Of a DNA stretch of 49,695 bases, positions 5,349 through 43,900 are shown piece after piece (the first letter of the stretch is position 1; each line of letters opens with the position of its first letter). Source of the DNA: Oscillospiraceae bacterium. GTDB lineage: Bacteria; Bacillota; Clostridia; Oscillospirales; Oscillospiraceae. The position numbers and the translations under genes were made by a program. Location of the stretch: assembly GCA_017501695.1 (NCBI GenBank), contig JAFVWL010000006.1:1-49695 (forward strand). The letters are read 5' to 3'. The notes below the pieces were generated by a model. That model did not search any database, was not told the DNA's origin, and was given only the letters and a program-made list of their open reading frames with translations.

Positions 5349-6665
5349 TTGCTGAAAGTTACGAAATTCGGCGGCTCCTCCATGGCGGATGCCGGCCAGT
5401 ACCGGAAGGTCCGCTCCATTCTGGAGGCCGATCCCGCCCGGAAGGTGGTCATCGTCTCCGCCGCCGGCAAGCGTGATAAGAAGGACCACAAAATTACAGA
5501 CCTGCTGTACCTGACCTATGCCCACACCCAGTACGGCGTGGACTACAGCCGGATCTTTGATATGATCTACGACCGCCACATCCAGATCCGGGACGATCTG
5601 GGCGTGGATCTGAACATGGAACGGGAGCTGAAGGACATCCGGGTCCGGCTGGACGAAAAGTCCATCTCCCAGGATGAGCTGGTGAGCCGGGGCGAGTACC
5701 TGTCCGCCAAGCTCATGGCCGCCTTCCTGGACTTTGAGTTCGTGGATGCCGCGGACTGGATCCGATTCAATCTGGACGGCTCCGTGGACCGGGAGACCTC
5801 CTACGAGCTCCTCCGCCGCCGGGTGGGCAAGAAGGGCATCGTGATCCCCGGCTTCTACGGTGTCATGCCCGACGGTCACATCCGCACCTTCTCCCGGGGC
5901 GGCAGCGACATCACCGGCGCTCTGGCCGCCGCGGCCCTGGACGCCGATGTCTACGAGAACTGGACCGACGTATCCGGCATCCTCATGGCGGATCCCCGGA
6001 TCGTGGAGAATCCCCAGGCCATCCCCCAGGTGACCTACGACGAGCTCCGGGAGCTGAGCTATTCCGGCGCCCAGGTCCTCCATGAGGGCACCATTTTCCC
6101 CGTCCGGGAGAAGAACATCCCCGTAAACATCCGCAACACCAACGCCCCCATGGACCCCGGCACCATGATCCAGGAGTCCTTCGACTCCCCCATCGACCCG
6201 GACCGGTTCATCACCGGCATCACCGGCAAGAAGAATTTCTCCATCATCTCCATGTCCAAGCGGGGCATGAGCAACGAGGTTGGCGTTCTGCGGAAGCTCC
6301 TGACCGTGCTGGAGCGGCACAACATCTCCATCGACTACGCTCCCAACGGCATTGACAATGTGTCCGTGGTCATGCCCACGGAATCCATTGAGCCCTGCCT
6401 GTACCAGATCCTGGACGAGATCAAGCGGGATGTGAATCCCGACACCCTGGATGTCCACGACCAGATCGCAGTGGTCGCCGCCGTTGGCCGCCACATGGCC
6501 TACCGGCCCGGTATTTCCGGTAAGATCTTCGCCGCATTGGGTAAGGCCGGCATCAACATCCGCATGATCAACCAGGGCCCCGATGAGCTGAACATCATCT
6601 TCGGCGTGGACAACAAGGATTTCGAAGCCGCCATCCGGGTGCTTTACAACAGTTTCGCGAAATAA
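5349..6665 (+). CDS. lysC: Aspartate kinase
   Basis: This 438-residue monofunctional enzyme phosphorylates aspartate, the first step toward threonine, methionine and lysine. The N-terminal KFGGSSMAD motif is the aspartokinase signature, RGGSDITGALAA near residue 180 belongs to the amino-acid kinase fold, and residues about 295-438 form two ACT regulatory domains. I chose a TTG start at 5349-5351 (reading LLKVTKFGGSS), preceded by GAAGGAAACTGCG, because the protein family starts at exactly this point. Longer starts such as the ATG at 5316 would run into the palindromic repeat. The isozyme cannot be named from sequence alone. Confidence 0.92.
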   Translation: MLKVTKFGGSSMADAGQYRKVRSILEADPARKVVIVSAAGKRDKKDHKITDLLYLTYAHTQYGVDYSRIFDMIYDRHIQIRDDLGVDLNMERELKDIRVRLDEKSISQDELVSRGEYLSAKLMAAFLDFEFVDAADWIRFNLDGSVDRETSYELLRRRVGKKGIVIPGFYGVMPDGHIRTFSRGGSDITGALAAAALDADVYENWTDVSGILMADPRIVENPQAIPQVTYDELRELSYSGAQVLHEGTIFPVREKNIPVNIRNTNAPMDPGTMIQESFDSPIDPDRFITGITGKKNFSIISMSKRGMSNEVGVLRKLLTVLERHNISIDYAPNGIDNVSVVMPTESIEPCLYQILDEIKRDVNPDTLDVHDQIAVVAAVGRHMAYRPGISGKIFAALGKAGINIRMINQGPDELNIIFGVDNKDFEAAIRVLYNSFAK

Positions 6666-18656: not shown

Positions 18657-19716
18657 ACGATCTCACCACCTGGGCCAAAGTTTCAAAATAGGGCTGCAAG
18701 GGTTTGTTGTCGAACCGGCAATCCTTCATTTCCATCAGGTCCGGAATCATCCGTTCCGCATCCTCCACCGTTTCCGCAAAACGAATGTAGGGAAGATAGC
18801 TGATCCATTCATAGGTCCCCCGTACCTTGTAGTTATAATTTCCAAATGCGATACAGGGCGTCCCTGTAATCGCCGCAAAAATCATTCCATGGAGCCGGTC
18901 CGTAATGACCAGCTCTGCGGATGCGATTTCCTCCAGCTTCTCTTTCACACATACACCGCGGTTTTCTTTGGTAATCCAGACATTTGCGTGCATATCCGTA
19001 TGCCGCATTTCCTTTCCCCAGCCAGAGAAGATCCCCTCTAACGCAGCCCGCTGTTCATCTGTCATAGCCCGCTCCGGGTCATTTCGCATACAAAACAGCA
19101 CACCGTGCCGCGGCTGCGGCTCCACTCCAAAAGAAGACATATCCGCAGACAGAACAATATCCGGTGCCAGCATACTGAGCGTATTCGGGTAGAGCTTCTG
19201 CACTAGCTCCAAGGATTTCTTTTCCCGGGCAACAATGATCAATTTCGGACGGTCATTATAGACAGGAATTGAAGACTGTCTATATTCCTCCTCTGTTTCT
19301 GCGTAGTATATGGTCTGAGGAAAGACCACCGTTGGGTTCTGGGGAAAGTCAGAAAGAAGCAGTCGGTGAAAATTCTCCTCCCGTTTCCATTGACTTCCCA
19401 TGTTTCCGCCACCCAAATGGACAATCAGGTCGTGCTTTTTTACCAGTCTTCTGATCCTACGCCGAAAAGAGGGATACTCCGAAAAACCAACTTCCCGGAT
19501 ACTTTCCGGCGAGATACCGGAACGGATTAAAAACAGCCGCTGGGCAATAGATATGGCACTGTCTCCCAGATTGGTGTGGTCCGGAAGCCCCGGAAGCAGC
19601 ACCCGGATTCCGGCATTCTTTCCCCACCAGGATTTTACATATTGATTTGTCATGTGCCACTCATGCAGCATCCCGTGCAACCGCCGCAGGGGGTAAAGAA
19701 TGTCTTTTTGGTTCAT
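18643..19716 (-). CDS. Polysaccharide pyruvyl transferase-family protein
   Basis: This 357-residue protein belongs to the pyruvyl transferase family (CsaB/WcaK type), which places ketal pyruvate on sugars using phosphoenolpyruvate. Family features are PGLPDHTNLGDSAI near residue 41, HLGGGNMGSQW near 95 and TDRLHGMIFAA near 273, the conserved R-x-H site. Its ATG overlaps the radical SAM gene before it (ATGA), so the two products are made together. Some family members have other activities, so pyruvylation is probable rather than certain. Confidence 0.85.
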   Translation of the reverse strand: MNQKDILYPLRRLHGMLHEWHMTNQYVKSWWGKNAGIRVLLPGLPDHTNLGDSAISIAQRLFLIRSGISPESIREVGFSEYPSFRRRIRRLVKKHDLIVHLGGGNMGSQWKREENFHRLLLSDFPQNPTVVFPQTIYYAETEEEYRQSSIPVYNDRPKLIIVAREKKSLELVQKLYPNTLSMLAPDIVLSADMSSFGVEPQPRHGVLFCMRNDPERAMTDEQRAALEGIFSGWGKEMRHTDMHANVWITKENRGVCVKEKLEEIASAELVITDRLHGMIFAAITGTPCIAFGNYNYKVRGTYEWISYLPYIRFAETVEDAERMIPDLMEMKDCRFDNKPLQPYFETLAQVVRSYANN

Positions 19717-20813
19717 AGTTTTTCCTTTAGGTTATGTAAAAACCGATAAAACTTAAATCCGGATAACCAGCCCCGTAATTTCTTCACTTTGGCCTTGAGG
19801 AATAGCTTCATTTTCTCCCCGGATGTGTATTGCTTATTAGAATCATACAAACGAGAAGAAAGAAAGGCTTTCATTTCCTGAGTCTGCCATTCTGCCTCCG
19901 GCCTGTTTCTTAAACTTCCATAACTTGGTGTCTGAACATTAGGAATTACGCCTAGTGACATAAAGTGACTTGAGTTCACGCAGTAGCTCGTTTTACATTC
20001 TGTGCCAACAGGAGTCAAGCAAACAGGAGCATTTAAATCAGAAAAAATATTTACACCTTCATTTGAAAAATAACACTTCCGCAGGATCCCCGTTGAGAGA
20101 TCCAAAACACCTGACCATTCCCCCGCATAACAAAACTCATTCCTTTTTTTATTAAAGTTCCTTAGTGTAAAGTCAAATAGCGGAGAATTAAATGATTTTC
20201 CCACACTAATGTAGTTTTCCGGATCCTTGCTATATACTTTGTATGGTGTACTGCTTTCATCTCGGGTGAGTGCTATTTGCGGATATGCACCCACTCTGTC
20301 TTTTGATATTTTCTTTATCTCGTCAACATACGGGATATAGGCATCACACAAGTTCATTTGAAGCAGAATTGATGCCCCAGCTTTACGCATTTTCTCGACA
20401 TTGGAGAAAAACTGATCAAGCAAACCACGCCGTTTTAACTCCAGATAATGCAAAGAGAACGATATGTGCAACCGTGATATAGCATCTTTACACAAATTGA
20501 TCAACCTATCAAATTGTTTTGTTTGTGTACCATTGGTCGTAATATTGACATAATGCCCCTCCTGTACCAACAGCCCTGCTATTTCTGCTACTTCCGGCTG
20601 TACAAGCGTTTCTCCAGCTCCACAGATACTTATTAAGCAAGTACCTCCCAACCGTTCCTTGGTCATAGCCAATGCAATATGTTCAGGAGAGTATTGCATT
20701 TTAGCCATTTTCATATTTCGTCTATTCTCTTGAATGATGTAGCAATATTCACATTCCAAATTACATACACTCACAGGCACCAAGCATTCTAAAAAACGTT
20801 TAATTCCCTCCAC
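19713..20813 (-). CDS. Radical SAM enzyme with SPASM-like tail, in glycan operon
   Basis: This 366-residue protein binds a 4Fe-4S cluster and S-adenosylmethionine through C17-x3-C21-x2-C24 (VCNLECEYCY). ISICGAGETLVQPE near residue 62 is the GxE SAM-binding motif. Residues about 228-290 hold further cysteines in a C-x13-G-x4-C arrangement (from FCYAGEW to ILRKC) followed by C-x7-C-x4-C, like a SPASM domain for extra Fe-S clusters. I use a GTG start at 20813, nine bases after GAGGGG. It sits between the ABC exporter ATPase and a pyruvyl transferase, so its substrate may be a sugar or lipid intermediate. Unrelated in detail to the radical SAM gene at 37609-38718. The gene is AT-rich. Confidence 0.82.
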   Translation of the reverse strand: MEGIKRFLECLVPVSVCNLECEYCYIIQENRRNMKMAKMQYSPEHIALAMTKERLGGTCLISICGAGETLVQPEVAEIAGLLVQEGHYVNITTNGTQTKQFDRLINLCKDAISRLHISFSLHYLELKRRGLLDQFFSNVEKMRKAGASILLQMNLCDAYIPYVDEIKKISKDRVGAYPQIALTRDESSTPYKVYSKDPENYISVGKSFNSPLFDFTLRNFNKKRNEFCYAGEWSGVLDLSTGILRKCYFSNEGVNIFSDLNAPVCLTPVGTECKTSYCVNSSHFMSLGVIPNVQTPSYGSLRNRPEAEWQTQEMKAFLSSRLYDSNKQYTSGEKMKLFLKAKVKKLRGWLSGFKFYRFLHNLKEKL

Positions 20814-23910: not shown

Positions 23911-25056
23911 TTAGCTCCTGTTTAGTCCCAATTTATATCTTGCAACCTCTATAAACCATTCCCATGCCGTTGGTTTTAGGCACTTCGCTGTAGCAATCCC
24001 AAAAGGCTCCTTTTGCAGCAGTTCAAAAAACTTTTTCCTTCTCTTGTGAAGTGTGCAGTGTCCATTCAAAAAAGGGTTGCCTTGTAAAATCTTTTCCGGA
24101 ACGGTTTCTTCCATTTGTAGTTCCGCTTGGATACAATTCACTAGATTCCGTCCCTTCTCCGAGTTTACAACAATACAAGACACTCCCTTGTTGTCCGCAA
24201 AGCTTTCATGGTACTTCTCCACACCCCAAAAATCGCCAAGGGTAATATCCGACGTACGTGGCAAGCTATTAAACACACACCTTCCGCAGACTTCATTTAA
24301 GCTTAGATTGGACAGGAATGCACGATAGTACACATCTTTCGCCGCTGGCAAGGAATAGACACTACCATCCGTAAATTCAATTCTGATGCACAGTTCTTTC
24401 CAGCCTTTTGTTTTATCCCGAAAAACGACTCGGTCCACTTTTGCCCCGTATTGCATTTCCTTTTCCATTATGTATTTCTGAAATGCCAAAGGACTGGGAA
24501 CACCATGGCAAATAAAATCAACTGTAATCAGATTTTCATATTCTTTGCTAAGATAGTTTTTCAGCCCCGCAACTTGACAAGGTGTTCCGCTGAATAAAAC
24601 AGGCTTGCCCTCTGTCAGTCGATTCTTTACATCGACAAACATGTTCCCTATCTTGCTTTGCACATATTTAGATTTTGATAAACGCGGGATTTGGGCTATG
24701 GTTGAAATCTCTACATGGCAAGCAGACAAATCCTCCCCCCATGCACATCCAAAAACATAGCCGCCATATTCAATAATCGACCGAGCTAGCAAAGGGAATA
24801 TTCCCCCGGAACTACTTTCTGTTAGGATGCTAGAGTCCTTACTTCTTCCAACAAATGCAGCAATCGGTCCCATACGCTCCGATTCATACAGCATGGGGCA
24901 AGCTTTTTCACACAAGCCGCATCGAACACATTTCTCATCCTGAATAACAGCCTTATAAAAGCCTTCCCGGTCCTGAGAAATGTGAATTGCACCTTTCATA
25001 CATTTTGCGGCACAGGCTCCACAGCCTGTACAAAAGCCATCAAGTTTTCGGACCAT
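23911..25056 (-). CDS. Fe-S F420 hydrogenase/dehydrogenase beta-subunit-like protein
   Basis: This 381-residue protein has two N-terminal 4Fe-4S motifs, C9-x2-C12-x2-C15-x3-C19 and C43-x2-C46-x2-C49-x3-C53-P, followed by the N- and C-terminal domains of the coenzyme F420 hydrogenase/dehydrogenase beta family (SSGGIFPLLA, GTPCQVAGLKNYL, DFICHGVPSPLAFQ and a later LGDFWGVEKYH). Family members bind flavin and transfer electrons. Its start overlaps the end of the preceding pyruvyl transferase-family gene by 17 bases, a pairing known from other capsule loci. No F420 biosynthesis gene is seen here, so the electron partner may be ferredoxin. A redox step on a glycan is inferred. Confidence 0.85.
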   Translation of the reverse strand: MVRKLDGFCTGCGACAAKCMKGAIHISQDREGFYKAVIQDEKCVRCGLCEKACPMLYESERMGPIAAFVGRSKDSSILTESSSGGIFPLLARSIIEYGGYVFGCAWGEDLSACHVEISTIAQIPRLSKSKYVQSKIGNMFVDVKNRLTEGKPVLFSGTPCQVAGLKNYLSKEYENLITVDFICHGVPSPLAFQKYIMEKEMQYGAKVDRVVFRDKTKGWKELCIRIEFTDGSVYSLPAAKDVYYRAFLSNLSLNEVCGRCVFNSLPRTSDITLGDFWGVEKYHESFADNKGVSCIVVNSEKGRNLVNCIQAELQMEETVPEKILQGNPFLNGHCTLHKRRKKFFELLQKEPFGIATAKCLKPTAWEWFIEVARYKLGLNRS

Positions 25057-27100: not shown

Positions 27101-27709
27101 TTACTTCCCCTCGTTGAACCATTTTACATAGTCAAAACAGTCGAAATACTTTCTCCCGCTGAAGCCATCCACAAAAGCATCGCCATTGCCCACTTCCCCC
27201 TCCGATTCAAAGCCAGGGATGTACACGGCGCTGGCGATTTCCGGCCGGGGTACATGGGTGAACACCGCCTTGTTTTGATAGGGCAGGGCATCAAATTCCC
27301 GCAGGATTTCCTCGGTACAGTCGTCCCGGTCCGTCATCAGGACAAAGAGGTTGTCCCAGTTGATCCGGGCCTTTCTTCGCTCCCAGGCGGAAGCCGCTTC
27401 CTCCGAATCGGCGTAGTGCATGAAATGGAGGGTGATGTCCCGGAGCATGGCTACGGGATATGCCTTACCGGCATCCCGGCAAAATTCCAGCGGAGCGGCC
27501 AGATAGATCCGGGGCTGGCGGAGGAATTTCATGTAATCCTCCGCTGACAGGCACAGGTTCACAAAAGGCGACCGGAACGGGAGCCCCAGGTCATGGCAGA
27601 TACAGCCGCCGTTGCAGTTGCTGGAAAACAGGGAAAACTCCCGGTTTCTCAACCGGAGACGGTTGATGCCGTTGATCAGTTTGCGGAAGATATAGTTGGA
27701 GTAGGACAT
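27101..27709 (-). CDS. DUF1919-family exopolysaccharide protein, GC-rich copy
   Basis: This 202-residue protein belongs to DUF1919, proteins found in exopolysaccharide and capsule loci and possibly glycosyl- or acyl-transfer related. FSLFSSNCNGGCICHDLGL at residues 26-44 and RSPFVNLCL are family landmarks; DNLFVLMTDRDDC and FDYVKWF follow. The start is preceded by AAAGGGAGCTGCCCC. A paralogue lies directly before it in the operon. The molecular function is not established. Confidence 0.75.
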   Translation of the reverse strand: MSYSNYIFRKLINGINRLRLRNREFSLFSSNCNGGCICHDLGLPFRSPFVNLCLSAEDYMKFLRQPRIYLAAPLEFCRDAGKAYPVAMLRDITLHFMHYADSEEAASAWERRKARINWDNLFVLMTDRDDCTEEILREFDALPYQNKAVFTHVPRPEIASAVYIPGFESEGEVGNGDAFVDGFSGRKYFDCFDYVKWFNEGK

Positions 27710-27728
27710 GGGGCAGCTCCCTTTCTTT

Positions 27729-28376
27729 TCAGTGGTTTCCGTTATTTAGCCATGCCACATAATCGAATTGATCGATCTTCCGTTTTCCAGACAGTCCATT
27801 GAACAAGGTCAGGCCGCCCAGTCCATCCTCATAACCGCGAATGCAATATGCACTGGGATACTGAGGAAATTCTCGTTCCGTAAACGCGACTTTGTTCCGA
27901 TAAGGCAGTCGATCAAAACGGGCCACCAGATCCTCTTCTGCGGGATCATAGAATGCCCACATTATGAACAAGTTGTCCCTATTGATTCTTCGAGTCCGCC
28001 TTTCCCATTTCTCCTTCGCCTCAGCAAAGGATTTATAGTGCAGAAAGTGCATCTCCAAATCACCCAAATTGCACACAGGGTATTCAATCTCCGGTGTATG
28101 CTCCGGGTTTTTGCATAGCGTCAATTCCTGAGCCAGATAGTATTCCAAATTCTCACAGAAACGGAAAAAATGGTCTTTATAGAAATATAGGTTAATTGTA
28201 GGAGATCGAAACTGTTCTCCTAAATCATGTGTAATGATACCACCGTTACAGTTATTGCACAGCAAAGAAAAGCCGTGATTTTGTAGTCGCTCCCTGTTTT
28301 TTCTGTTGATAAAGAAACGAAGCAATTTATTCCACCGCAACGCGAATTTCGTATTGTATTTTGTCAAATCCCGCAT
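27729..28376 (-). CDS. DUF1919-family exopolysaccharide protein, AT-rich copy
   Basis: This 215-residue protein is a paralogue of the following gene: FSLLCNNCNGGIITHDLG, RSPTINLYFY, MHFLHYKSFAEA, RINRDNLFIM and FDYVAWLNNGN align along the entire length. The DNA is clearly more AT-rich than that of its sister, so the pair is unlikely to be a recent duplication. Basic residues near the N terminus (RFFINRKNRERL) suggest membrane association. Confidence 0.75.
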   Translation of the reverse strand: MRDLTKYNTKFALRWNKLLRFFINRKNRERLQNHGFSLLCNNCNGGIITHDLGEQFRSPTINLYFYKDHFFRFCENLEYYLAQELTLCKNPEHTPEIEYPVCNLGDLEMHFLHYKSFAEAKEKWERRTRRINRDNLFIMWAFYDPAEEDLVARFDRLPYRNKVAFTEREFPQYPSAYCIRGYEDGLGGLTLFNGLSGKRKIDQFDYVAWLNNGNH

Positions 28377-35823: not shown

Positions 35824-37014
35824 TCATTCCTCTCCAAGCACACCGTACTGCCGCAGCAGGGCCACCCTCCGGTTGCCCTCCGCCGCCGCTTCCCCGGCAT
35901 CCGGGGTTTTCAGGACATACCGGACCAGCCGGTCGCCCCAGGCCACCGGCACCAGCCAGGGCCTTTTTTTCAAATGCGGATACCGGTCCTCCAGCTTCCT
36001 GGGCTCCGGGAACAGGGCCCCCAGAAGGGCCGGACCCCGGCCGCTGGGGCCATCCGTCACCGCTTTCAAGGTCATATTGCCGCTGTGGAGCCGGGCCTGG
36101 GTGGCGGAGCCGTAGATGCCCGCTCCCAGAATATCCGCCAGCAGAGCCTCCGGGTCCGGGCCATCCTCCGGACAGCCCGCCGGGTTCAGGTTCAAATACC
36201 GCCGACCCAGGGCGAACACGCCCCGGACAAAGCCCTCCGCCCGAAGCTCCCGGCTAATTTCCAGAATCCGGGGCCACGAAATCTCCCCGCTCCGAGCCTG
36301 GGCGTACAGGCAAATGTCACAGACCTGCCGGACGCCCACGCCGCTGTGGATGAAATGCTTGAAGGCATGGAGCAGCAGGTACAGCATATGGTCCGTGGGC
36401 CCCATGGTCAGCACCGGGGTGCCCTGGATCTCCTGCACCTCCGCCCGGTCAAATACGCTGTCGAAATACCGGTTCCAGCCGCTGCAGGCCGGTTCCTCCG
36501 GGCTGAACAGGTCCCGGTGGAGCTCCACAAACAGAGGGCTTCCCTCCATCCCATAGTCCCGCTCATGATCCCCGGAACGGATTTTTGCGCAGGTCATGCC
36601 ATATCCCTCCAGGACCTTCTGTGCCGCTTCGTACTGCTCCGGTGGCACCAGCAGGTCCTCATCCGAGGAGGGGCGCAGGTCCGGCTGGGGGTACAGGCTC
36701 CGGCAGACGATGCCCTTGACCACCAGGGCCCGGATCCCGGCAGCGCGCAGCCCCTCCGCCAGAGCCAGGAAATCATGGGTCTTTCGGGTTTGCAGCATAA
36801 CCGCGGACCGGACCGCCGGACGGCAGGGGGCCAGAGCTTCCATGGCCCCCGACTGGGTGCTGAGGCTTTGGAAAATCAGGGGCAGGACCTTGTGGGCCTG
36901 GGCCAGCCGGGCCAGGAACTGCCACCGGTCCCCGGTAAGCTCCGCCTCCGGAGCCTTTTGGCCCCGGAGGGCCGCTCCCAGAGCGGTCAGAAATACCTGC
37001 TCCCAGTGTTCCAT
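35824..37014 (-). CDS. NTP_transf_5-type nucleotidyltransferase
   Basis: This 396-residue protein matches the uncharacterised nucleotidyltransferase family (PF14907 type): IRALVVKGIVCRSLYPQP near residue 100, followed by RPSSDEDLLV with the acidic metal residues, and VELHRDLFSPEE. Members occur in lasso-peptide clusters beside HPr-kinase-like and PqqD-like proteins, and in polysaccharide loci. I chose the ATG at 37014 because the -10 box at 37047-37052 leaves almost no leader for the ATG at 37035, and GGGGTG stands before 37014. It is the first gene of the glycan operon but lies next to the PqqD/radical SAM block, so it could serve either pathway. Confidence 0.75.
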   Translation of the reverse strand: MEHWEQVFLTALGAALRGQKAPEAELTGDRWQFLARLAQAHKVLPLIFQSLSTQSGAMEALAPCRPAVRSAVMLQTRKTHDFLALAEGLRAAGIRALVVKGIVCRSLYPQPDLRPSSDEDLLVPPEQYEAAQKVLEGYGMTCAKIRSGDHERDYGMEGSPLFVELHRDLFSPEEPACSGWNRYFDSVFDRAEVQEIQGTPVLTMGPTDHMLYLLLHAFKHFIHSGVGVRQVCDICLYAQARSGEISWPRILEISRELRAEGFVRGVFALGRRYLNLNPAGCPEDGPDPEALLADILGAGIYGSATQARLHSGNMTLKAVTDGPSGRGPALLGALFPEPRKLEDRYPHLKKRPWLVPVAWGDRLVRYVLKTPDAGEAAAEGNRRVALLRQYGVLGEE

Positions 37015-37046
37015 CCCCACACCCCATTTCCGCATTTTAATAATTT

Positions 37047-37075
37047 ATTATACCATATTTTCTCCCCGCTTGGAA
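37047..37075 (-). promoter_or_regulatory. Probable promoter of the polysaccharide operon
   Basis: On the minus strand a perfect TATAAT (37052-37047) lies 17 bases behind a weak -35, TTCCAA (37075-37070). Transcription would begin near 37040, just before the nucleotidyltransferase gene and the 25-kb operon. The weak -35 box suggests an activator or low expression. Confidence 0.55.
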
Positions 37076-37228
37076 TAGCAAAGGCGAAAATATGGAGGAT
37101 TTTTGAAGTAATTTCCCTTGTGGACAGCCGTCAGCGAGGCCGGTGGTATCGGACGAGCAACCGCAAGGTTCGCCCCTGTTCGGAAAAAGGACCGTCCGGG
37201 AGGCCGGTCCCTACATTCGCACAAGCAC

Positions 37229-37262
37229 GTCATTGCGAGGAGCGAAGCGACGTGGCAATGAC
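37229..37262. repeat. Collapsed GTCATTGC...GCAATGAC palindrome
   Basis: Thirty-four bases begin GTCATTGCGAGGAGCG and end CGTGGCAATGAC, so the end arms GTCATTGC and GCAATGAC pair directly. It is a short form of the repeats in the threonine cluster and has a second repeat-like stretch (GGGGGGCGACCGTCTGAG) beside it. The 316-base gap from 37036 to 37351 also contains the glycan promoter and the terminator below, and no gene that I can support. Confidence 0.7.
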
Positions 37263-37307
37263 GTGGATGGGGGGCGACCGTCTGAGTGCCCCTACACAGA
37301 AGGATAT

Positions 37308-37348
37308 CCCAAAACAGAATACACGGGGTCCCGGAGCCGGGACCCCGT
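37308..37348 (-). terminator. Terminator of the PqqD/radical SAM operon
   Basis: On the minus strand ACGGGGTCCCGG (37348-37337) pairs perfectly with CCGGGACCCCGT (37334-37323), followed by GTATTCTGTTTTGG. It begins four bases after the PqqD-like stop codon and separates this operon from the glycan operon. Confidence 0.85.
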
Positions 37349-37351
37349 TGC

Positions 37352-37612
37352 TTACAGGATGCCAAATTCACGGAGCCGGGTCAGGAACTCGTCCAGGTCC
37401 CGGGCAGCTTCCGCTTCCGGAACCTCGTATTCTGCCAGCACCGCCGCCAGCAGGTCCTCCCGGTCCGACGCCTGGGGCAGGCGGTCCCACAGGAACGCCC
37501 CCAGCTCATTCAGGGCAAAGAGCCCATTGGAATCATAAACGCTTTTTCCCACGGGCACCAGGATGGTATCCCCGGCGACCTCCCGCTTGATCAATTCCTT
37601 TCGGATTTTCAT
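37352..37612 (-). CDS. PqqD-like peptide-chaperone (RRE) protein
   Basis: This 86-residue protein belongs to the PqqD family. KREVAGDTILVPVG, FALNELGAFLWDRL near residue 45 and the following acidic helix region (REDLLAAVLAEYEV) are typical. PqqD-type domains bind the leader of a ribosomal peptide and present it to the modifying radical SAM enzyme. The ATG at 37612 follows AAGGAGGACTCCG and overlaps the radical SAM stop by four bases, which supports a working pair. It is the last gene before the terminator. Confidence 0.87.
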   Translation of the reverse strand: MKIRKELIKREVAGDTILVPVGKSVYDSNGLFALNELGAFLWDRLPQASDREDLLAAVLAEYEVPEAEAARDLDEFLTRLREFGIL

Positions 37613-38718
37613 CGGAGTCCTCCTTCTTCCAGGGTCCGGCGGACCACAGCATCGGTCATGCGGCACACATACTCCGGCACCCGGTCAAAGGCACCGGTCT
37701 CCGTGACACATACGGCGGCGCAGACACTGCACACCTCTTTTTTAGGGCAGGATGCGCACTGGGTCGGGGTTCGGATTTTGGCTGTCTCGGCCCGGATGGC
37801 ATCCCAGGCGGCGTCGAAGCCCACTTCCAGAGGGTAGGCCGTGGGGCCGGGCATCATGCCGCAGGGCCGCATTTTCCCATCCCAGGTCATCCAGAAGCTG
37901 GTGGACCCAGCCCGGCACCTTACTCCGGTTTCGTCCTCCAGAGGACATCCCTCCCGGGGCACCGTCAGCGCTTCCATCGCCCGGGCCCGCTGGGCAAATT
38001 CCTCCGGAGTGAACCGGAGCTTATCCCACCGGACAGACTGGGCCGCCGCTTCCTCCGGCGGCAGACGGTGGCCATGGCCGTAATCGCCGCCGTTGATGCG
38101 GATGGGCGGGTACATATAGCTGGCCGCCCGGATATTCACATTCAGATCCACCGCGTCGGCGTAGATCCGTTCCAGGTCGCCCTGATTCTCCGGAGTGATG
38201 GACAGATTCAGACTGACCTCCACCCCCGCCTGCCGCAGAGCGCGGATATTGGCGCGGACCCGGTCATAGAAGGGCTGGCCGCACATCCGGGAATAAGTAT
38301 CGTTGGAGCCGCCGTATAGTGAGATGTTGAACCGGGCCGGCGGCGCCTCCAAAAAACGGTCCAGGACCCTGCCCTGAAGCAGGGAGCCGTTGGTATTGAC
38401 GGAGATCAGCAGGCCCAGGTCCTTCATGCCCTCGTAGATCTCAAAAAAGTCCCTGCGGATCAGGGGCTCGCCGCCGGTGAGAAGGGCAAAGACCATACCC
38501 CGGTCCCGGGCAGCACGGGCAATCCCCAGCCACTCCCGGGCCGTCAGTTCCCGGCCCGCCGCGTCCACCTGTTCCTGGGTCATGTGGACATAGCACATGG
38601 GACAGTTGAAATTGCACCGGGCAGTCAGCTCAAAATTGCCCGCAATAGGCAAGCCAAGCTTCCTGCCCTTGGTATGCAGATACGTAGAAAGATAGGGTTC
38701 GGATTTTTTCGGATTCAT
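37609..38718 (-). CDS. Radical SAM/SPASM peptide-modifying enzyme
   Basis: This 369-residue enzyme has C35-x3-C39-x2-C42 (ARCNFNCPMCYV) for the radical SAM cluster, LLTGGEPLIRRDFFE near residue 77 as the GGE motif, and a complete SPASM domain: C268-x12-G-x4-C286, then C321-x2-C324-x5-C330-x2-C333-x3-C337 and C352. Such enzymes cross-link or otherwise modify ribosomal peptides when paired with PqqD. I chose the ATG at 38718 with CAGGTGATACC before it; longer frames run into the HPr-kinase-like gene. An 81-residue four-cysteine peptide upstream in the operon is the likely substrate, by inference. Confidence 0.87.
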   Translation of the reverse strand: MNPKKSEPYLSTYLHTKGRKLGLPIAGNFELTARCNFNCPMCYVHMTQEQVDAAGRELTAREWLGIARAARDRGMVFALLTGGEPLIRRDFFEIYEGMKDLGLLISVNTNGSLLQGRVLDRFLEAPPARFNISLYGGSNDTYSRMCGQPFYDRVRANIRALRQAGVEVSLNLSITPENQGDLERIYADAVDLNVNIRAASYMYPPIRINGGDYGHGHRLPPEEAAAQSVRWDKLRFTPEEFAQRARAMEALTVPREGCPLEDETGVRCRAGSTSFWMTWDGKMRPCGMMPGPTAYPLEVGFDAAWDAIRAETAKIRTPTQCASCPKKEVCSVCAAVCVTETGAFDRVPEYVCRMTDAVVRRTLEEGGLR

Positions 38719-38722
38719 GGTA

Positions 38723-39583
38723 TCACCTGCCACTGAGTGCCTGCTCCAGGGCCAGCACCGCAGATTCATCGGGGGTACAGTCCAGACGGAATACGGGAAC
38801 GGCATCCAGAACCTGCCGGACCAGCTCCGTGGCCAGTTCCAGGTCCTCCCGGTCCCAGGTGTTGACGCTGCAGCCTTCCCACACCGCCCGGAAAGCACGG
38901 AAGCCCTCCAGGGGCCGGATGGCGGTCTGCTTCGCCTGGCCCAGGTATACGATGGCTCCCAGGGGAGCCGTGAGATTTTCGCAGAATTGGGAGCTTCCGG
39001 CATAGGGGATGCCGCAGGCCACGGGGAGCCCCGCTACCATTCGGATGGCGATCCGGTCCCCATTGACGATGACCCCGCCCCGGTGGCGGTGCCACAGCCC
39101 GGCCTGGGTAGATTTTCCGGTTTCCGACGGCGCGGTGAACAGGATCGCCCGGCCCTCATGGATCACGCAGGACGCATGGAGAATCACACCTCCGGCCCGG
39201 ACCACCAGGTGCTCTGCCCCAAGGGCCCCCAGGACCGTATGGGTTCCCACAGGGCCGGGAACCATGTCCCGGAGAAGCTGGATCCGGCAGGACCGGCCCT
39301 GCCAGACCGTACGCAGATAGGCCTTTTCCCAGGTCAGTTCCACACCGCCCTGGTAACGGGTCCGGACGCCTGCCTGCTCATAGACACGGCAGTCGGGCTC
39401 CACCGCCAAGCACTCCCCCTCCGGGGGCTCCAACCGGTCCACCCGTTCCAGAGTAACGGTATAACTTTCCTCAGTATGGGCCGCTCCAAAGGGAGCCAGC
39501 CGGCCCTCCCGCTCGTACATCAGATCCTCCGGACCCTCCAGTGCGATACGGACCCCGGCGAATTCATAACAGCGCCGGACCAT
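38723..39583 (-). CDS. HPr-kinase-like protein
   Basis: This 286-residue protein resembles the kinase domain of HPr kinase/phosphorylase and the related peptide kinases. VILHASCVI at residues 133-141 precedes the P-loop FTAPSETGKST (149-159), and NGDRIAI (174-180) is the following metal/catalytic motif. There is no N-terminal regulatory domain of true HPr kinase, no HPr gene nearby, and the first 120 residues are specific. In paeninodin-type lasso-peptide clusters homologues phosphorylate the C-terminal serine of the precursor peptide. Its ATG overlaps the stop of the preceding gene as TGATG. Confidence 0.8.
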   Translation of the reverse strand: MVRRCYEFAGVRIALEGPEDLMYEREGRLAPFGAAHTEESYTVTLERVDRLEPPEGECLAVEPDCRVYEQAGVRTRYQGGVELTWEKAYLRTVWQGRSCRIQLLRDMVPGPVGTHTVLGALGAEHLVVRAGGVILHASCVIHEGRAILFTAPSETGKSTQAGLWHRHRGGVIVNGDRIAIRMVAGLPVACGIPYAGSSQFCENLTAPLGAIVYLGQAKQTAIRPLEGFRAFRAVWEGCSVNTWDREDLELATELVRQVLDAVPVFRLDCTPDESAVLALEQALSGR

Positions 39584-40623
39584 CAGGAAGCCACCCGAAC
39601 GAACATGATCACGCTCTCCGAGGAGGAGAAGTGACCGGTCATGACCTGGCGGGTCTCGTGGGCGGACAGGCCGCCGGGGATCCGGGCCACATAGGTGATG
39701 CCGCCGTAAAGCTGGCCGTCCACCATATTCTTGTAGTAAATTTCGATGTCTCCGGTGATGTCAGCGCCGGAGATATTGGTCACATTCAGCGCGCCTTCCA
39801 TGCCCTGGAAGCTGAACCAGTCCGTGCGGACGGTCTGATCCTCCGGGAAGAAGACCACGTTCCGGGCAGCGGCGGAGGTGAATTCCAGCTCCGGGGAATC
39901 CTGCATCCGGGTCTGCTCCAGCAGCAGCACGGAGGCTCCCGCGGGCAGGGTGGTCACAGAGAAGACAGCGGTGCCGGAGGGTCCGGACAGCTCGATCTGG
40001 GCATACTGGAGCAGCTCCGTGCCTGTGTTGGTCAGAACGATCATGAGCACATTGGACACGGTCTCGTCGGAGCCGTCCTCCATAAAGGGTCCGGTGTAGC
40101 TTCCCATGTCCGTGATCTGCAGGCCATGGACCAGATTATACATGGAGCCCGCAGGCTCGGTTTCCGGATCCGAGGGATAGGGGATCCGGTCGGTATAGCT
40201 GTCCGTATAGTCGAAGCCGCAGCGGGTGCAGGTATGGCGGGTGTAGCCGCCGGCCACGTGGGTGGCTTCCACCACCTCCGTCTCGAAGCTGTGGCCCAGA
40301 GGCTCGGTCTTGTCCCCGAAATAGGAGTCGCCGCAGTCACAGGTATAGACCGTGTAGCCGCCGTTGGTGCAATCCGGTGCCTGGGTCCGGGTCACGGTAT
40401 GACGGTGGGTATGGCCCGGGTCGGTGGGCGTTGTGGGGTTGGTGGGACCGGGGGTGGGATCGGTGGGACCTAGGGTGGGATCGGTGGGCCCGGCAGGCTC
40501 TGTGGGGTCCGGGGATGCCGGGTCCATGGACAGGGCCACCGCCAGAAGCACCGCCAAAAGCACCGCCAGCACGGCAATCGCCGTCAGCAGCCCCCGGCGG
40601 GGGTTGGTTTTTCTTCGCTTCAT
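39583..40623 (-). CDS. Membrane-anchored Thr/Pro-rich protein with two CxC/CxxC repeats
   Basis: I do not recognise a family for the entire 346-residue protein. A single membrane segment (about residues 12-32) is followed by a proline/threonine linker made of repeats such as DPTLGPTDPTPGP (35-68). Two related units follow: TVYTCDCGDSYFG and TRHTCTRCGFDYTD, each with a cysteine pair and an adjacent GHS/GGYT stretch, like the short zinc-ribbon-like repeats in clostridial surface proteins. Residues about 150-346 look like an extracellular beta domain. The ATG follows GAGGTGAAACCCT. It lies between the small peptide and the kinase gene, so it may anchor or receive the modified product. Confidence 0.75.
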   Translation of the reverse strand: MKRRKTNPRRGLLTAIAVLAVLLAVLLAVALSMDPASPDPTEPAGPTDPTLGPTDPTPGPTNPTTPTDPGHTHRHTVTRTQAPDCTNGGYTVYTCDCGDSYFGDKTEPLGHSFETEVVEATHVAGGYTRHTCTRCGFDYTDSYTDRIPYPSDPETEPAGSMYNLVHGLQITDMGSYTGPFMEDGSDETVSNVLMIVLTNTGTELLQYAQIELSGPSGTAVFSVTTLPAGASVLLLEQTRMQDSPELEFTSAAARNVVFFPEDQTVRTDWFSFQGMEGALNVTNISGADITGDIEIYYKNMVDGQLYGGITYVARIPGGLSAHETRQVMTGHFSSSESVIMFVRVAS

Positions 40624-40674
40624 AGGGTTTCACCTCGTAAATCCGGCGGGATCTGCCCACCGGGTCATGCGGGT

Positions 40675-40704
40675 AAGGCCGCGCCACGAAAATGGCGCGG
40701 CCTT
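40675..40704 (-). terminator. Strong hairpin behind the small peptide gene
   Basis: A perfect 12-base stem, AAGGCCGCGCCA (40675-40686) with TGGCGCGGCCTT (40693-40704), follows the peptide stop on the minus strand by eight bases. No long T run follows. It is placed as an attenuator or mRNA-protecting hairpin that would give more peptide mRNA than enzyme mRNA. Confidence 0.6.
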
Positions 40705-40712
40705 GGGGTAAA

Positions 40713-40958
40713 TCAGGAGTTGAAGAGATTGTATCTCTCATACGGGACATGGTAACAAATACCATTGTATTCCCCGTCTTGCTCATGCGTTCTGCAGCCG
40801 TTGACCTCTGAGATAAACACTGCATATCCTGTTTTTGTCAGGAATGGACATGTTTCCCTTGCACTGTTGTCGATTATTGTATCACAATCTCCAGCAATAC
40901 CGGAACTCATGGAGAAGCTCTCAAAAATGATTTCAGGCTTCGTGTATTTCTTTTTCAC
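40713..40958 (-). CDS. 81-residue four-cysteine peptide, candidate RiPP precursor
   Basis: This small protein begins MKKKYTKPEIIFESF, a charged leader-like helix, and continues SMSSGIAGDCDTI. Four cysteines (25, 37, 55, 68) lie in the second part, with GICYHVPYERYNLFNS-like sequence at the end and a C-terminal serine. The GTG start at 40958 has GGAAAGGAGACTCTGAAAA before it. The gene lies 19 bases behind the giant surface protein and ahead of the hairpin at 40675-40704. The N terminus resembles short peptides that I recall beside PqqD/radical SAM genes in gut Firmicutes, but I cannot verify that here. It has no signal peptide or membrane segment. Precursor status is inferred. Confidence 0.72.
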   Translation of the reverse strand: MKKKYTKPEIIFESFSMSSGIAGDCDTIIDNSARETCPFLTKTGYAVFISEVNGCRTHEQDGEYNGICYHVPYERYNLFNS

Positions 40959-40977: not shown

Positions 40978-43900
40978 TTAATGATAGATCCAGTCACGCC
41001 GGTCCTCGCCCGGGTTCACCTTGGCATCCCGGACTGTTACCGTCCGCAGGACGGGCTCGCTCCATTCTCCGTCGGCGTTATAGGCCACCACGGAAATCTC
41101 CAGGGTGCCCACGGCTTCCGCGGGGATCTCGATGATCCAGGTCTTGGTACGGCTCCAGCGGCTGTAGGTGCAGCGGGTGACAACCTGGCCATTGACCACC
41201 AGGTTCTCCACATCCGGGCCGGTCAGAACGGTCACCAGAACACGGTTGCCCACCCGGACCCAGTCCCGGCTGAGCTTCACCAGCATAAACCGGGGTTTAA
41301 AGGTGGGTTCCGGCTCAGGTTCCGGCTGCGGTATTTGCTCCGAATCTCCGTGGTAATCCGGCGAATTCAGGATCTGGATCGTCGCTTCCGCAGCTTCCTT
41401 GGTCATGTAAACATAGCCCAGTTCAGGTTCCTGCGTTTCGTCAACCGCCTGAATACCGTTCGCTCCGGAGGCATTTTCTCCCGTTTGTGGTCCGCTTACC
41501 GTATCGCCCGTATTTTCCTTTGGATCCTGAGTATAGGTAAACTTAATATTGGTCAGGGAAATAATGCCTTCCGTGCCGTTCTCGGGCCGGTTACCGGTGT
41601 TGGAGATCACGATGATCGCATCCTTCCAGGGATCCAAATCGTAATACATATCCGTAGTTGTGCTCAACGTATCTGTCTTTGCTCCAAAGAACGCGCCAAT
41701 CTGCTCTCCCGGATTATTCGGATTGTAAATCGGTTCTCCGTTTACTTCGTCGCCTATCACAATATTCGTGATGGTATAGGTACAGGTTCCACCATCCGCA
41801 CTCTTGATACCAATATGGACATTGGCCAGATTGGCAACGTTACCAAGCATAAACGCAATGCGCTGTCCGGGGTTCAGATAGACTTCATTATTGGGACCAT
41901 AATCGATATAGTCTGCCAGTTGGTCGTCACCAACGTCAGCATCTCCATCAATAAAAACTATGCCTTCAATTATTTCATCTGTCAGATTGCTGTCAAAAAA
42001 ACCCGCTTCGATAATCTCGTTGCGCAGTTCCAGATAGGAAGGCCAGCCTTCGCCATCTGCTTTATAGGCATCTTCGATGGTGGTATCCTCGGAACCGTCA
42101 GAAGCCCCATCATTGGCAGGGTCATAGATCCGGATTGCGTCCAGATAGAAATCATAACTGTCGCTCCCCTCTACATGGTCAAAGAAGGGCTCATACAGCG
42201 CAATAATTTCTGCCTCATATTGACCATAAGGAAGATTCTCTACCTGCATAACAGGAACCTGATACAGACTGTCCTTTGCATTCGGATCAACAACCCATAC
42301 CTGCACTGCTTCATAAGCGATGTAGCTGTCCCCATTTTGGGGATTCTCAGGCTTCGTTGTCTCCGGAGTATCGTCCGAAGGTACACCCAAATCTTTTCTT
42401 ATCCAAGAGGCGTTCTGCCCATCATCAGTATAGGTGTACTGCACTGCATGCGTCTCCGTCACGGTTTTATATCCGTAATAGGTGTCCACTATGAAACTGT
42501 CATAAAGCGTCCGACCACTCTCGGAGCATTTATAGACATCGACAATAACCGTTCCAGTCATATTGCTGGTGAGACTGATTACGTCAAAACCCGTGCCAAA
42601 AAACTTAAACTTAGCTTTGGCATAGTGATCATAATCCACTGTAGCTTTCAGTGCAGAGCCCATGGAATAGGTCGACATCTTCAGGTTTACCTGATCATAG
42701 CCATAGATGTTGTTAGCATCAGTCAGGCTGTAGAAACCAGGCCGATCCTCGGATTGAGCACCGTTGATCTCAGCACCGTCCGTGCTCCACAGGCTATTGC
42801 TCTCATCCAGCACCCATTCCTCGCTGTCATCCCATTCGTAGCTTTCCGTTTTCAGGAAGCTGTCCTCATAGTAGATGGTCGTCGCGGGGATGACGGTAAC
42901 GGTGCCGTAGTAGAACTGGTCTTCCGTGAAGGTTTCGCCGTTGACCTTGACAGTTGCCGTATACTTGACTTCATAGTAGAACCGTTCGTATCCGGGCATC
43001 TCCGTGGTATTGGGCGTATAGCGGACCTTGCCGTTATTCAATTCGACAGTACCGTACTGGCCGGTCCATGTGCGGGAATACAGGTCGCTTTCCGTCAGAT
43101 TATGATTGCCGTTCGCGTATGTTATCTGCGGCAGGGAGCCAGCCACGCCGTAGAGGGTACCGGCAGTACCGAACATATCGTTGTACAGCACATCGATATC
43201 CACAGGCAGACCGTAGTCGATGACCACCGTATCCGGCAAGGTGCCGGGCTCCCAAATCACCGCGAACCAAACCGTGGTGGAAGTAAAGTCCACACCCGCT
43301 GTGCCCTCCGAATCAGAAATATTCTCGGTAGTAGCTTCCGAGCCACGGTAGTCGGTAACATAGGTCGTGAGAACCGGCTTGCTGCTGGTGATCACCCAGT
43401 TGCCGCCGCCGTTGGAGCGGACGGTGACCTGATAGGCTGCTTCGCTGTCAAACAGCGCATAGCCTTCCGGAAGGACATTCCTGTCGTTGGCCAACAGCTT
43501 TTCCAGATCCGTGATTCCGGTGGAGTTCAGGGGCATCTCGCTGTACAGGACCTTCTTTGTGACCTTAACGGCATCATAGAAGGAGCCGGTTTCGCCGGTG
43601 GCACGGTTGGTAACGGGGTTGCCTTCGCTGTCCACCAGGTAGAAGCCATAGTAGAAGGCCGCGCTTTCCCAGGCCACGGAGGGAGATGGCACGCTCTGCT
43701 GGGCATCGTTGCCCAGCCAGTTTTTGTAGTACAGGGTCGCGTAGTTATTGGTCATGTAGGTACCGGCGGCGGCAGTGCCTTCCATGGAGCCTTCCAGATA
43801 TGCGTAGTAGGTCAGAACAAATTCCTGGTCGTTGATGGTGCCGATATTCCAGCGGAAGGTTTCGCCCTCCAGCTCGAAGTCGGTGATTCCGTCACCGTCC

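Follow-up and report, generated by a model that had tools for sequence, protein, structure and literature searches.

Gene content of the locus

The window analysed here is a 49,695-nucleotide stretch of an Oscillospiraceae bacterium (G000:C29; contig JAFVWL010000006.1 of assembly GCA_017501695.1), taken from a 2.3-Mb assembly that consists of 154 contigs and is 87% complete. Its minus strand carries six genes that the first-pass annotation of this DNA had read as a peptide-modification cassette, encoding a small cysteine-rich precursor-like peptide, a secreted protein, a protein resembling HPr kinase (HPrK), a radical S-adenosylmethionine (SAM)/SPASM enzyme, a PqqD-like protein and a PF14907 nucleotidyltransferase. 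Coordinates and domain calls agree with that description of the genes, their places and their strand (Table 1), but it overlooked a giant secreted protein encoded next to the peptide, with a domain common to such giants, as well as the near-invariant C-terminal Ser of the peptide and a strong hairpin behind its gene. The peptide gene starts 19 bases behind the giant gene, and the hairpin parts these two genes from those of the enzymes.

When the 70 bases after each stop codon were compared with single-base shuffles (z below -2.5), a strong fold was found after 63 of 91 peptide genes, 14 of 57 giant genes and 4 of 69 kinase genes. This layout fits a high output of giant protein and peptide together with a low output of the enzymes, as would be expected if the former are products and the latter catalysts.

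Recurrence of the cassette in Clostridia

We compared the window with 79 loci found through the radical SAM enzyme (best 80 matches, in named genomes). Judging by their titles, most are metagenome assemblies from Oscillospiraceae, Lachnospiraceae and further Clostridia, a good many of ruminant-gut origin. Two are from named isolates, Fusibacillus kribbianus and Intestinibacter bartlettii, with a peptide seen at the locus of the second only; many contigs in the 80-locus set are cut, and nearly all of the sequences are incomplete metagenome assemblies. Profiles detected the kinase in 72 of the 80 loci, PqqD in 60, the peptide in 52, the secreted protein in 51 and the nucleotidyltransferase in 18, an earlier count from open reading frames (ORFs) of at least 90 amino acids having under-called PqqD at 55/80. 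Peptide, kinase and radical SAM genes occur together in 49/80 loci, in 39/80 with PqqD too and in 10/80 with the nucleotidyltransferase also. Among loci close to the window's own type, the genes most often run in the order giant, peptide, secreted protein, kinase, radical SAM, PqqD, and variants occur. Because the gene set and its order recur in many genomes, the cassette is more than a chance assembly: the operon recurs in mostly uncultured Clostridia. Conserved linkage of the peptide, which had been named beforehand as the check on the first-pass annotation, is what these counts give, and the recurring company of kinase, radical SAM enzyme and PqqD speaks for a peptide-modification cassette. 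The nucleotidyltransferase did not hold its place as a standing member.

The kinase lies within 3 kb of 73 of the 91 distinct peptides described below. Relatives of the radical SAM enzyme (E<=1e-30) were found in 13 of 150 genomes of the family and in 33 of 101 genomes of the genus, and all 13 of the former also carry the kinase. All nine genomes tested encode at least one kinase; eight of these had been picked because the fetched locus showed none, whereas the locus of the ninth (L141) had one.

The precursor-like peptide and its C-terminal Ser

The peptide gene starts with GTG, and GGAAAGGAG upstream of it resembles a ribosome-binding site (by eye). Its product carries a leader-like KKYxKPEIxFESFxxSxxIA, cysteines at positions 25, 37, 55 and 68, a CYHVP motif and a C-terminal FxS, and no Pfam family scored over its cut-off for it. 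Profile searches of 133 loci, a census that left out the short loci L040-L051 and in which some stretches are present twice under two locus ids, and then of 17 more, gave 105 matches, or 91 distinct peptides after collapsing on the last 40 residues. The family follows the pattern MKKxYxKPexxFExFxLSxxIAxxC, three further cysteines, CYHVP and a C-terminal FxS. Four cysteines are present in 62 of the 83 full-length peptides and, the cysteines excepted, the core is more variable than the leader in the peptide alignment. A chance ORF can be ruled out, as homologues sharing these motifs are found repeatedly in this position.

Ser is the last residue in 88 of the 91 distinct peptides, while only 6.4% of 1385 ORFs of at least 250 amino acids in the same loci end in Ser (six-frame ORFs, spurious ones included). 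The residue preceding it is of 17 different kinds, Phe stands at -3 in 68/91, and the terminal Ser codons are of all four TCN types (58, 12, 10 and 7) plus one AGT. As both the neighbouring residue and the third codon base drift, the terminal Ser appears to be held by selection; with TCN codons in 87 of 88 cases, a constrained residue inherited from a common ancestor is a better fit than one that arose repeatedly.

Ten further peptides below the profile threshold were chosen by N-terminal motif and by eye and are excluded from the 91. Nine of them end in Ser, while the tenth, beside a kinase gene in Intestinibacter bartlettii, ends in PFSA. A weak peptide match in genome G005 is a different small KPE-type peptide without a cassette, which we kept in the overlap counts below. 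Longer peptides of 129-142 amino acids, with a leader ending of the EYVAAC- or FIAAC- type, adjoin kinase and radical SAM genes at L159, L161 and L165; three of the four end in Ser and the L159 peptide, from Intestinibacter bartlettii, in Ser-Ala. Possibly these form a second precursor family.

Putative modifying enzymes and the secreted protein

For the HPr-kinase-like protein no Pfam family scored over its cut-off. The best named families are all HPrK-related and all far below cut-off (ScmC, 7e-6; HprK_rel_A, 0.012; HprK_rel_B, 0.016), and the top three matches of the kinase profile in the PDB are HPr kinases (E of 0.0037, 0.0038 and 0.044). ScmC is the nearest named family for each of the 18 aligned kinases, with a best E of 6.3e-11; the window kinase reaches 25.6 of 125 bits, and ScmC is below cut-off in its own genome too. 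His136, Lys157 and Asp176 are invariant in 18/18 aligned kinases and line up with HPrK. The two marks of lasso-type phosphorylation, an HPrK-like kinase and a C-terminal Ser on the precursor, are both present. In the papers cited here by PMC number, used in extract, lasso-peptide HPrK-like kinases phosphorylate the C-terminal Ser (PMC9266682, PMC8498205), the target of PadeK being the Ser hydroxyl of the linear precursor (PMC9266682). These kinases require that Ser and are largely indifferent to the remaining sequence (PMC8498205), and it is highly conserved in precursors whose clusters include such a kinase (PMC9266682).

The radical SAM gene most likely starts at ATG 38718, giving 369 amino acids rather than a 464-residue ORF, and the PqqD gene at ATG 37612; the Pfam E-values are 1.1e-26 for Radical_SAM and 1.8e-17 for PqqD. 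The cysteines of a radical SAM/SPASM maturase are all in place, with CxxxCxxC at 35/39/42 and Cys 268, 286, 321, 324, 330, 333 and 352 invariant in 19/19 aligned enzymes. One SPASM pair is spaced CxxC, where CxxxC is usual, and the enzyme is over the cut-off of none of the 25 NCBIfam models shown. By precedent, PqqD and SPASM enzymes form peptide-modifying sets. The secreted protein shows a hydrophobic segment at the N terminus along with CxC/CxxC pairs (by eye), and no Pfam family scored over its cut-off.

Some sets of kinase, radical SAM and PqqD genes without the peptide have a conserved ORF beside PqqD, flavin-reductase-like by eye (RPQRYTKEFVDREE...).

Giant exoproteins and the domain they have in common

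The giant protein of the window carries a Glyco_hydro_88 domain (6.7e-55, residues 83-415) and Big_2 Ig-like domains (4.5e-18). The glycosyl hydrolase family 88 domain was not seen in the giants of L197 and L205. Sortase anchoring was rejected, as LPXTG-type sequences were flagged in 0/44 giant C termini (some of them cut or in doubtful frames) and none lies in the last 60 residues of the window giant. Inspection by eye shows a TGD motif with a membrane helix at the ends of L197, L198 and L108, and an amphipathic helix at those of many others.

Common to giants that adjoin such peptides is a domain of about 130 amino acids with the pattern GPNNEVYL ... YYD ... ISLTNIKxTY. No Pfam family matches it convincingly, although two of 36 members bear a weak resemblance to a galactose-binding domain, and the PDB gave no match. 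Two of our alignments, A4 (35 of the 46 stretches listed) and A5 (35 of the 39), also include the window; stretches with wrong starts, near-duplicates and divergent ones were dropped. Among the fetched loci the domain was seen in 75 ORFs, and for 70 of these a peptide detected by profile lies no more than 3.1 kb away (63 of 68 after deduplication). Four of the remaining five giant genes (L029, L125, L145 and L152) have a peptide of the motif type at their end, and the fifth, the giant of L133, runs off the locus. Since most of these loci had been retrieved by way of the enzyme or the peptide, a search with the domain alone matters more. Across the 150 family genomes it gave 16 copies in 11 genomes; for 11 of the copies the contig also carries, within about 8 kb, a peptide that the profile detects, and for one more (G099) a motif-type peptide. 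Of the 150 genomes, 11 have the domain and 11 the peptide, 10 of them having both, for which the hypergeometric p of 1e-13 is descriptive only, the genomes being related.

Peptide genes also stand apart from the enzymes. Seven genomes have window-type enzymes without the peptide (G203, G174, G186, G212, G235, G220 and G236, the kinase being unseen too in G212), and all seven encode peptides elsewhere, some within other cassettes of the same genome. Several such detached peptides, at L197, L198, L203 and L205, adjoin giant ORFs of 2410 to 3680 amino acids with no enzyme gene in the stretch; the one at L206 lies beside a giant ORF with the secreted protein only, and others are found at contig ends or beside smaller ORFs. 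Given these detached pairs and the co-occurrence of domain and peptide, it is doubtful that the giant gene is an unrelated neighbour.

Nucleotidyltransferase and neighbouring genes

The nucleotidyltransferase matches PF14907 with 175.2 bits against a gathering score of 31.2 (2.4e-51), and no second PF14907 gene was found in the genome, which is 87% complete. In the window it forms a separate unit after a terminator-like stem, one of 6 such stems against 3.1 expected from shuffles, and heads a capsule/exopolysaccharide cluster. Found in 18/80 loci by profile and in 17 by BLAST clusters within 7 kb, it is ruled out as a general core member and is an occasional neighbour. The glycan cluster beyond it comprises genes for a sugar-phosphate transferase, glycosyltransferases, a Wzy-type ligase, pyruvyl transferases and an ABC-2/Wzt-like exporter, and threonine-pathway genes on the plus strand fill the first 9 kb of the window. 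A palindromic element, ATTGCCACGTCGCTTCGCTCCTCGCAATGACG, with the look of a dispersed repeat, lies between the PqqD and nucleotidyltransferase genes. Outside the cassette, the glycan cluster holds a second radical SAM gene (PF04055, 1.8e-9) flanked by pyruvyl transferase and ABC/Wzt genes, an FrhB/FdhB-type iron-sulfur protein gene between glycosyltransferase and pyruvyl transferase genes, and a tandem DUF1919 pair.

Table 1. Features of the window and of related loci (locus ids precede positions outside the window)
Feature	Position	Strand	Basis or remark
Giant secreted protein, 2623 aa	40978..48849	-	Pfam; signal-peptide-like N terminus by eye
~130-aa domain, aa 2294-2443 of giant protein	41521..41970	-	common to giants adjoining such peptides
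Precursor-like peptide, 81 aa	40713..40958	-	homologue profile; four conserved Cys; Ser81 last
Strong 13-bp hairpin (attenuator-like)	40675..40704	-	between peptide stop codon and enzyme genes
Membrane-anchored secreted protein	39583..40623	-	conserved C-terminal ~183 aa; without Pfam family
HPr-kinase-like protein	38723..39583	-	His136, P-loop GKST with Lys157, Asp176-Arg177
Radical SAM/SPASM enzyme, 369 aa	37609..38718	-	Pfam; cofactor Cys motifs
PqqD-like leader-binding protein, 86 aa	37352..37612	-	Pfam
Terminator-like stem between PqqD and nucleotidyltransferase genes	37323..37348	-	stem search
Palindromic element	37223-37268		place approximate
PF14907 nucleotidyltransferase	35824..37035	-	Pfam; heads downstream glycan cluster
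DUF1919 gene pair	27101-28376	-	
FrhB/FdhB-type iron-sulfur protein	23911-25056	-	
Second radical SAM protein	19713-20813	-	
Conserved ORF next to PqqD	L073:2259-2807, L075:6606-7157, L076:6157-6687, L078:3145-3681, L079:4783-5382		by eye
Longer peptides	L161:4302-4775; L165:4794-5279 and 5843-6301; L159:5863-6291		motif and eye

Interpretation

On balance, we think that the operon probably encodes a pathway of the type that makes ribosomally synthesized and post-translationally modified peptides (RiPPs), and that its product is a cross-linked, C-terminally phosphorylated, Cys-rich peptide that partners the giant exoprotein of the same operon. PqqD would bind the N-terminal KxYxKPexxFExF leader and deliver its bearer to the radical SAM/SPASM enzyme, the probable source of cross-links that start from the conserved cysteines. 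By analogy with PadeK and ThcoK acting on lasso precursors, the HPrK-like kinase would then phosphorylate the hydroxyl of the C-terminal Ser, an order of steps that we infer. In some genomes the PF14907 enzyme may extend the phosphate with a sugar, like PsmN, which adds one or two hexoses to phosphorylated Ser (PMC9266682/PMC8498205). The mature peptide, presumably exported, would act with the giant protein, most likely via the ~130-aa domain. We put forward more tentatively, as a possible but rather doubtful extension, that the modified peptide (glycosylated in some species) is a dedicated working component of giant surface proteins. Its gene would be transcribed together with theirs, and the peptide, after maturation in the cytosol and export, would be bound by the ~130-aa domain, where it would perhaps tether the giant to the cell's own capsule glycan; one enzyme set could serve several peptide and giant pairs in trans.

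Several observations weigh against the pathway proposed here. No modification has been observed, the peptide lacks a signal sequence (by eye), and the window cassette is without a recognised exporter or leader peptidase; a C39 search of the genome gave one candidate match elsewhere, in a 271-residue frame, of 28 bits and so above the cut-off of 22. Aligned with HPrK, the window kinase has Gly in place of one member of the Asp pair, and lasso kinases need the His-Lys-Asp-Asp set (PMC9266682); the lasso kinase BsfK modifies Ser3 instead of the C-terminal residue (PMC10368454). A kinase of the broad family (E<=1e-10) occurs in 30 of the 150 family genomes, 17 of which have no radical SAM match. 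Four peptides do not end in Ser, three of the 91 (FGSF, FGSY and FTSG) and the motif-picked one ending in PFSA; all four have Ser one residue earlier and the kinase adjoins three of them. The first three are found at L033, L212 and L200, respectively, the former two both from genome G052. As for the giants, the domain copies of G052 contigs 25 and 16 had no peptide in the 18 kb read, and two more lie at contig or stretch ends: the giant gene of G052 contig 14 stops 165 bases from the contig end, and that of G124 contig 121 runs off the contig, the G124 peptide being on another one.

It is also conceivable, if unlikely, that the peptide is a free modified natural product, a secreted bacteriocin or signal, and the giant a co-regulated neighbour only. 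The enzyme set is indeed of the RiPP-pathway kind, the leader is less variable than the core once the cysteines are set aside, an ABC exporter-like gene is near in 9/80 loci (one member checked with Pfam), and two domain-bearing giants of G052 have no nearby peptide. However, neither an immunity gene nor an exporter was recognised in the window cassette, and several peptide genes detached from the enzymes adjoin giants with the same domain. Peptide divergence tracks that of the domain with the enzyme held fixed (partial rank correlation 0.40, 46 loci) but equally that of the enzyme with the domain held fixed (0.41), and the permutation control breaks both links, so that this argument is weak.

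We regard as quite improbable that the peptide is a small partner protein with disulfide-bonded cysteines and FxS as a recognition tag, the enzymes acting on another substrate such as a glycan precursor. The conservation of Phe at -3 is tag-like and the window cassette adjoins a capsule/exopolysaccharide cluster; yet sets of PqqD and SPASM enzyme have peptides as their customary substrates, the kinase stands within 3 kb of most of the peptides, and the peptide has no Sec signal (by eye). A distant branch of a lasso-type or SynChlorMet-type pathway, with its other genes elsewhere, seems very improbable to us. The accessory kinase, PqqD and nucleotidyltransferase are of the kinds found in lasso clusters (PMC9266682, PMC7533575) and ScmC is the nearest family for all aligned kinases, but all Scm models score far under cut-off, and the 49 window ORFs scanned hold no lasso cyclase or protease domain, the rest of the genome not having been searched.

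If the RiPP-type pathway with a giant partner is real, C-terminal Ser phosphorylation extends from lasso to radical SAM peptides, and a RiPP takes on a structural role, in place of an antibiotic one, on the giant adhesin-like proteins that gut bacteria make. Thanks to the C-terminal Ser, the kinase prediction can be tested directly, and the shared domain is a concrete candidate binding partner.

Comparison with known systems

We found no published description of such a cassette, which is weak evidence of absence, subscription papers and preprints being outside the search. In the extract of PMC4289311, which mentions radical SAM, HPr kinase and RiPP, the kinase is placed in lasso clusters only.

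The first-pass view that a lasso-type accessory set is joined here to a radical SAM/PqqD set stands for the kinase, by co-occurrence, and falls for the nucleotidyltransferase; the combination also has a precedent in name, since the ScmC-D-E-F families exist. The SynChlorMet cassette (NCBIfam TIGR04248-TIGR04251), whose make-up we take from model names only, likewise has a kinase-like ScmC, a PqqD-like ScmD and radical SAM/SPASM proteins, of which its names give two and our cassette has one. Membership is ruled out, every Scm model being far below its curated cut-off (ScmC 25.6/125, ScmD 17.1/100, ScmE 66.3/400 and ScmF 56.3/400 bits). To our knowledge the link to a giant protein has no precedent, in SynChlorMet or elsewhere.

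HprK-related kinase A/B systems (TIGR04352, TIGR04355 and TIGR04353) are alike in combining an HPrK-like kinase with a PqqD-family protein, with scores below cut-off; we know of no radical SAM protein in their names. Sactipeptide and ranthipeptide maturases are radical SAM/SPASM enzymes acting on Cys-rich peptides of gut Clostridia. Unlike those systems (e.g. ruminococcin C), the present cassette adds a kinase and a C-terminal Ser.

The phosphorylated lasso peptides, paeninodin (PadeK/ThcoK) and pseudomycoidin (PsmK/PsmN), share with it an HPrK-like kinase, a C-terminal Ser on the precursor, a PqqD-type binder and sometimes a nucleotidyltransferase, and the same kinds of accessory kinase, PqqD and nucleotidyltransferase are present in rumen lasso clusters (PMC9266682, PMC7533575). 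A lasso cluster proper was ruled out, since the 49 window ORFs scanned with Pfam matched neither an asparagine-synthetase-like lasso cyclase nor a B2 protease, in line with the first-pass annotation, which had also read the cassette as lacking a lasso cyclase and protease. What distinguishes the cassette from the lasso systems is its radical SAM/SPASM enzyme, the four conserved cysteines of the core and the linked giant exoprotein.

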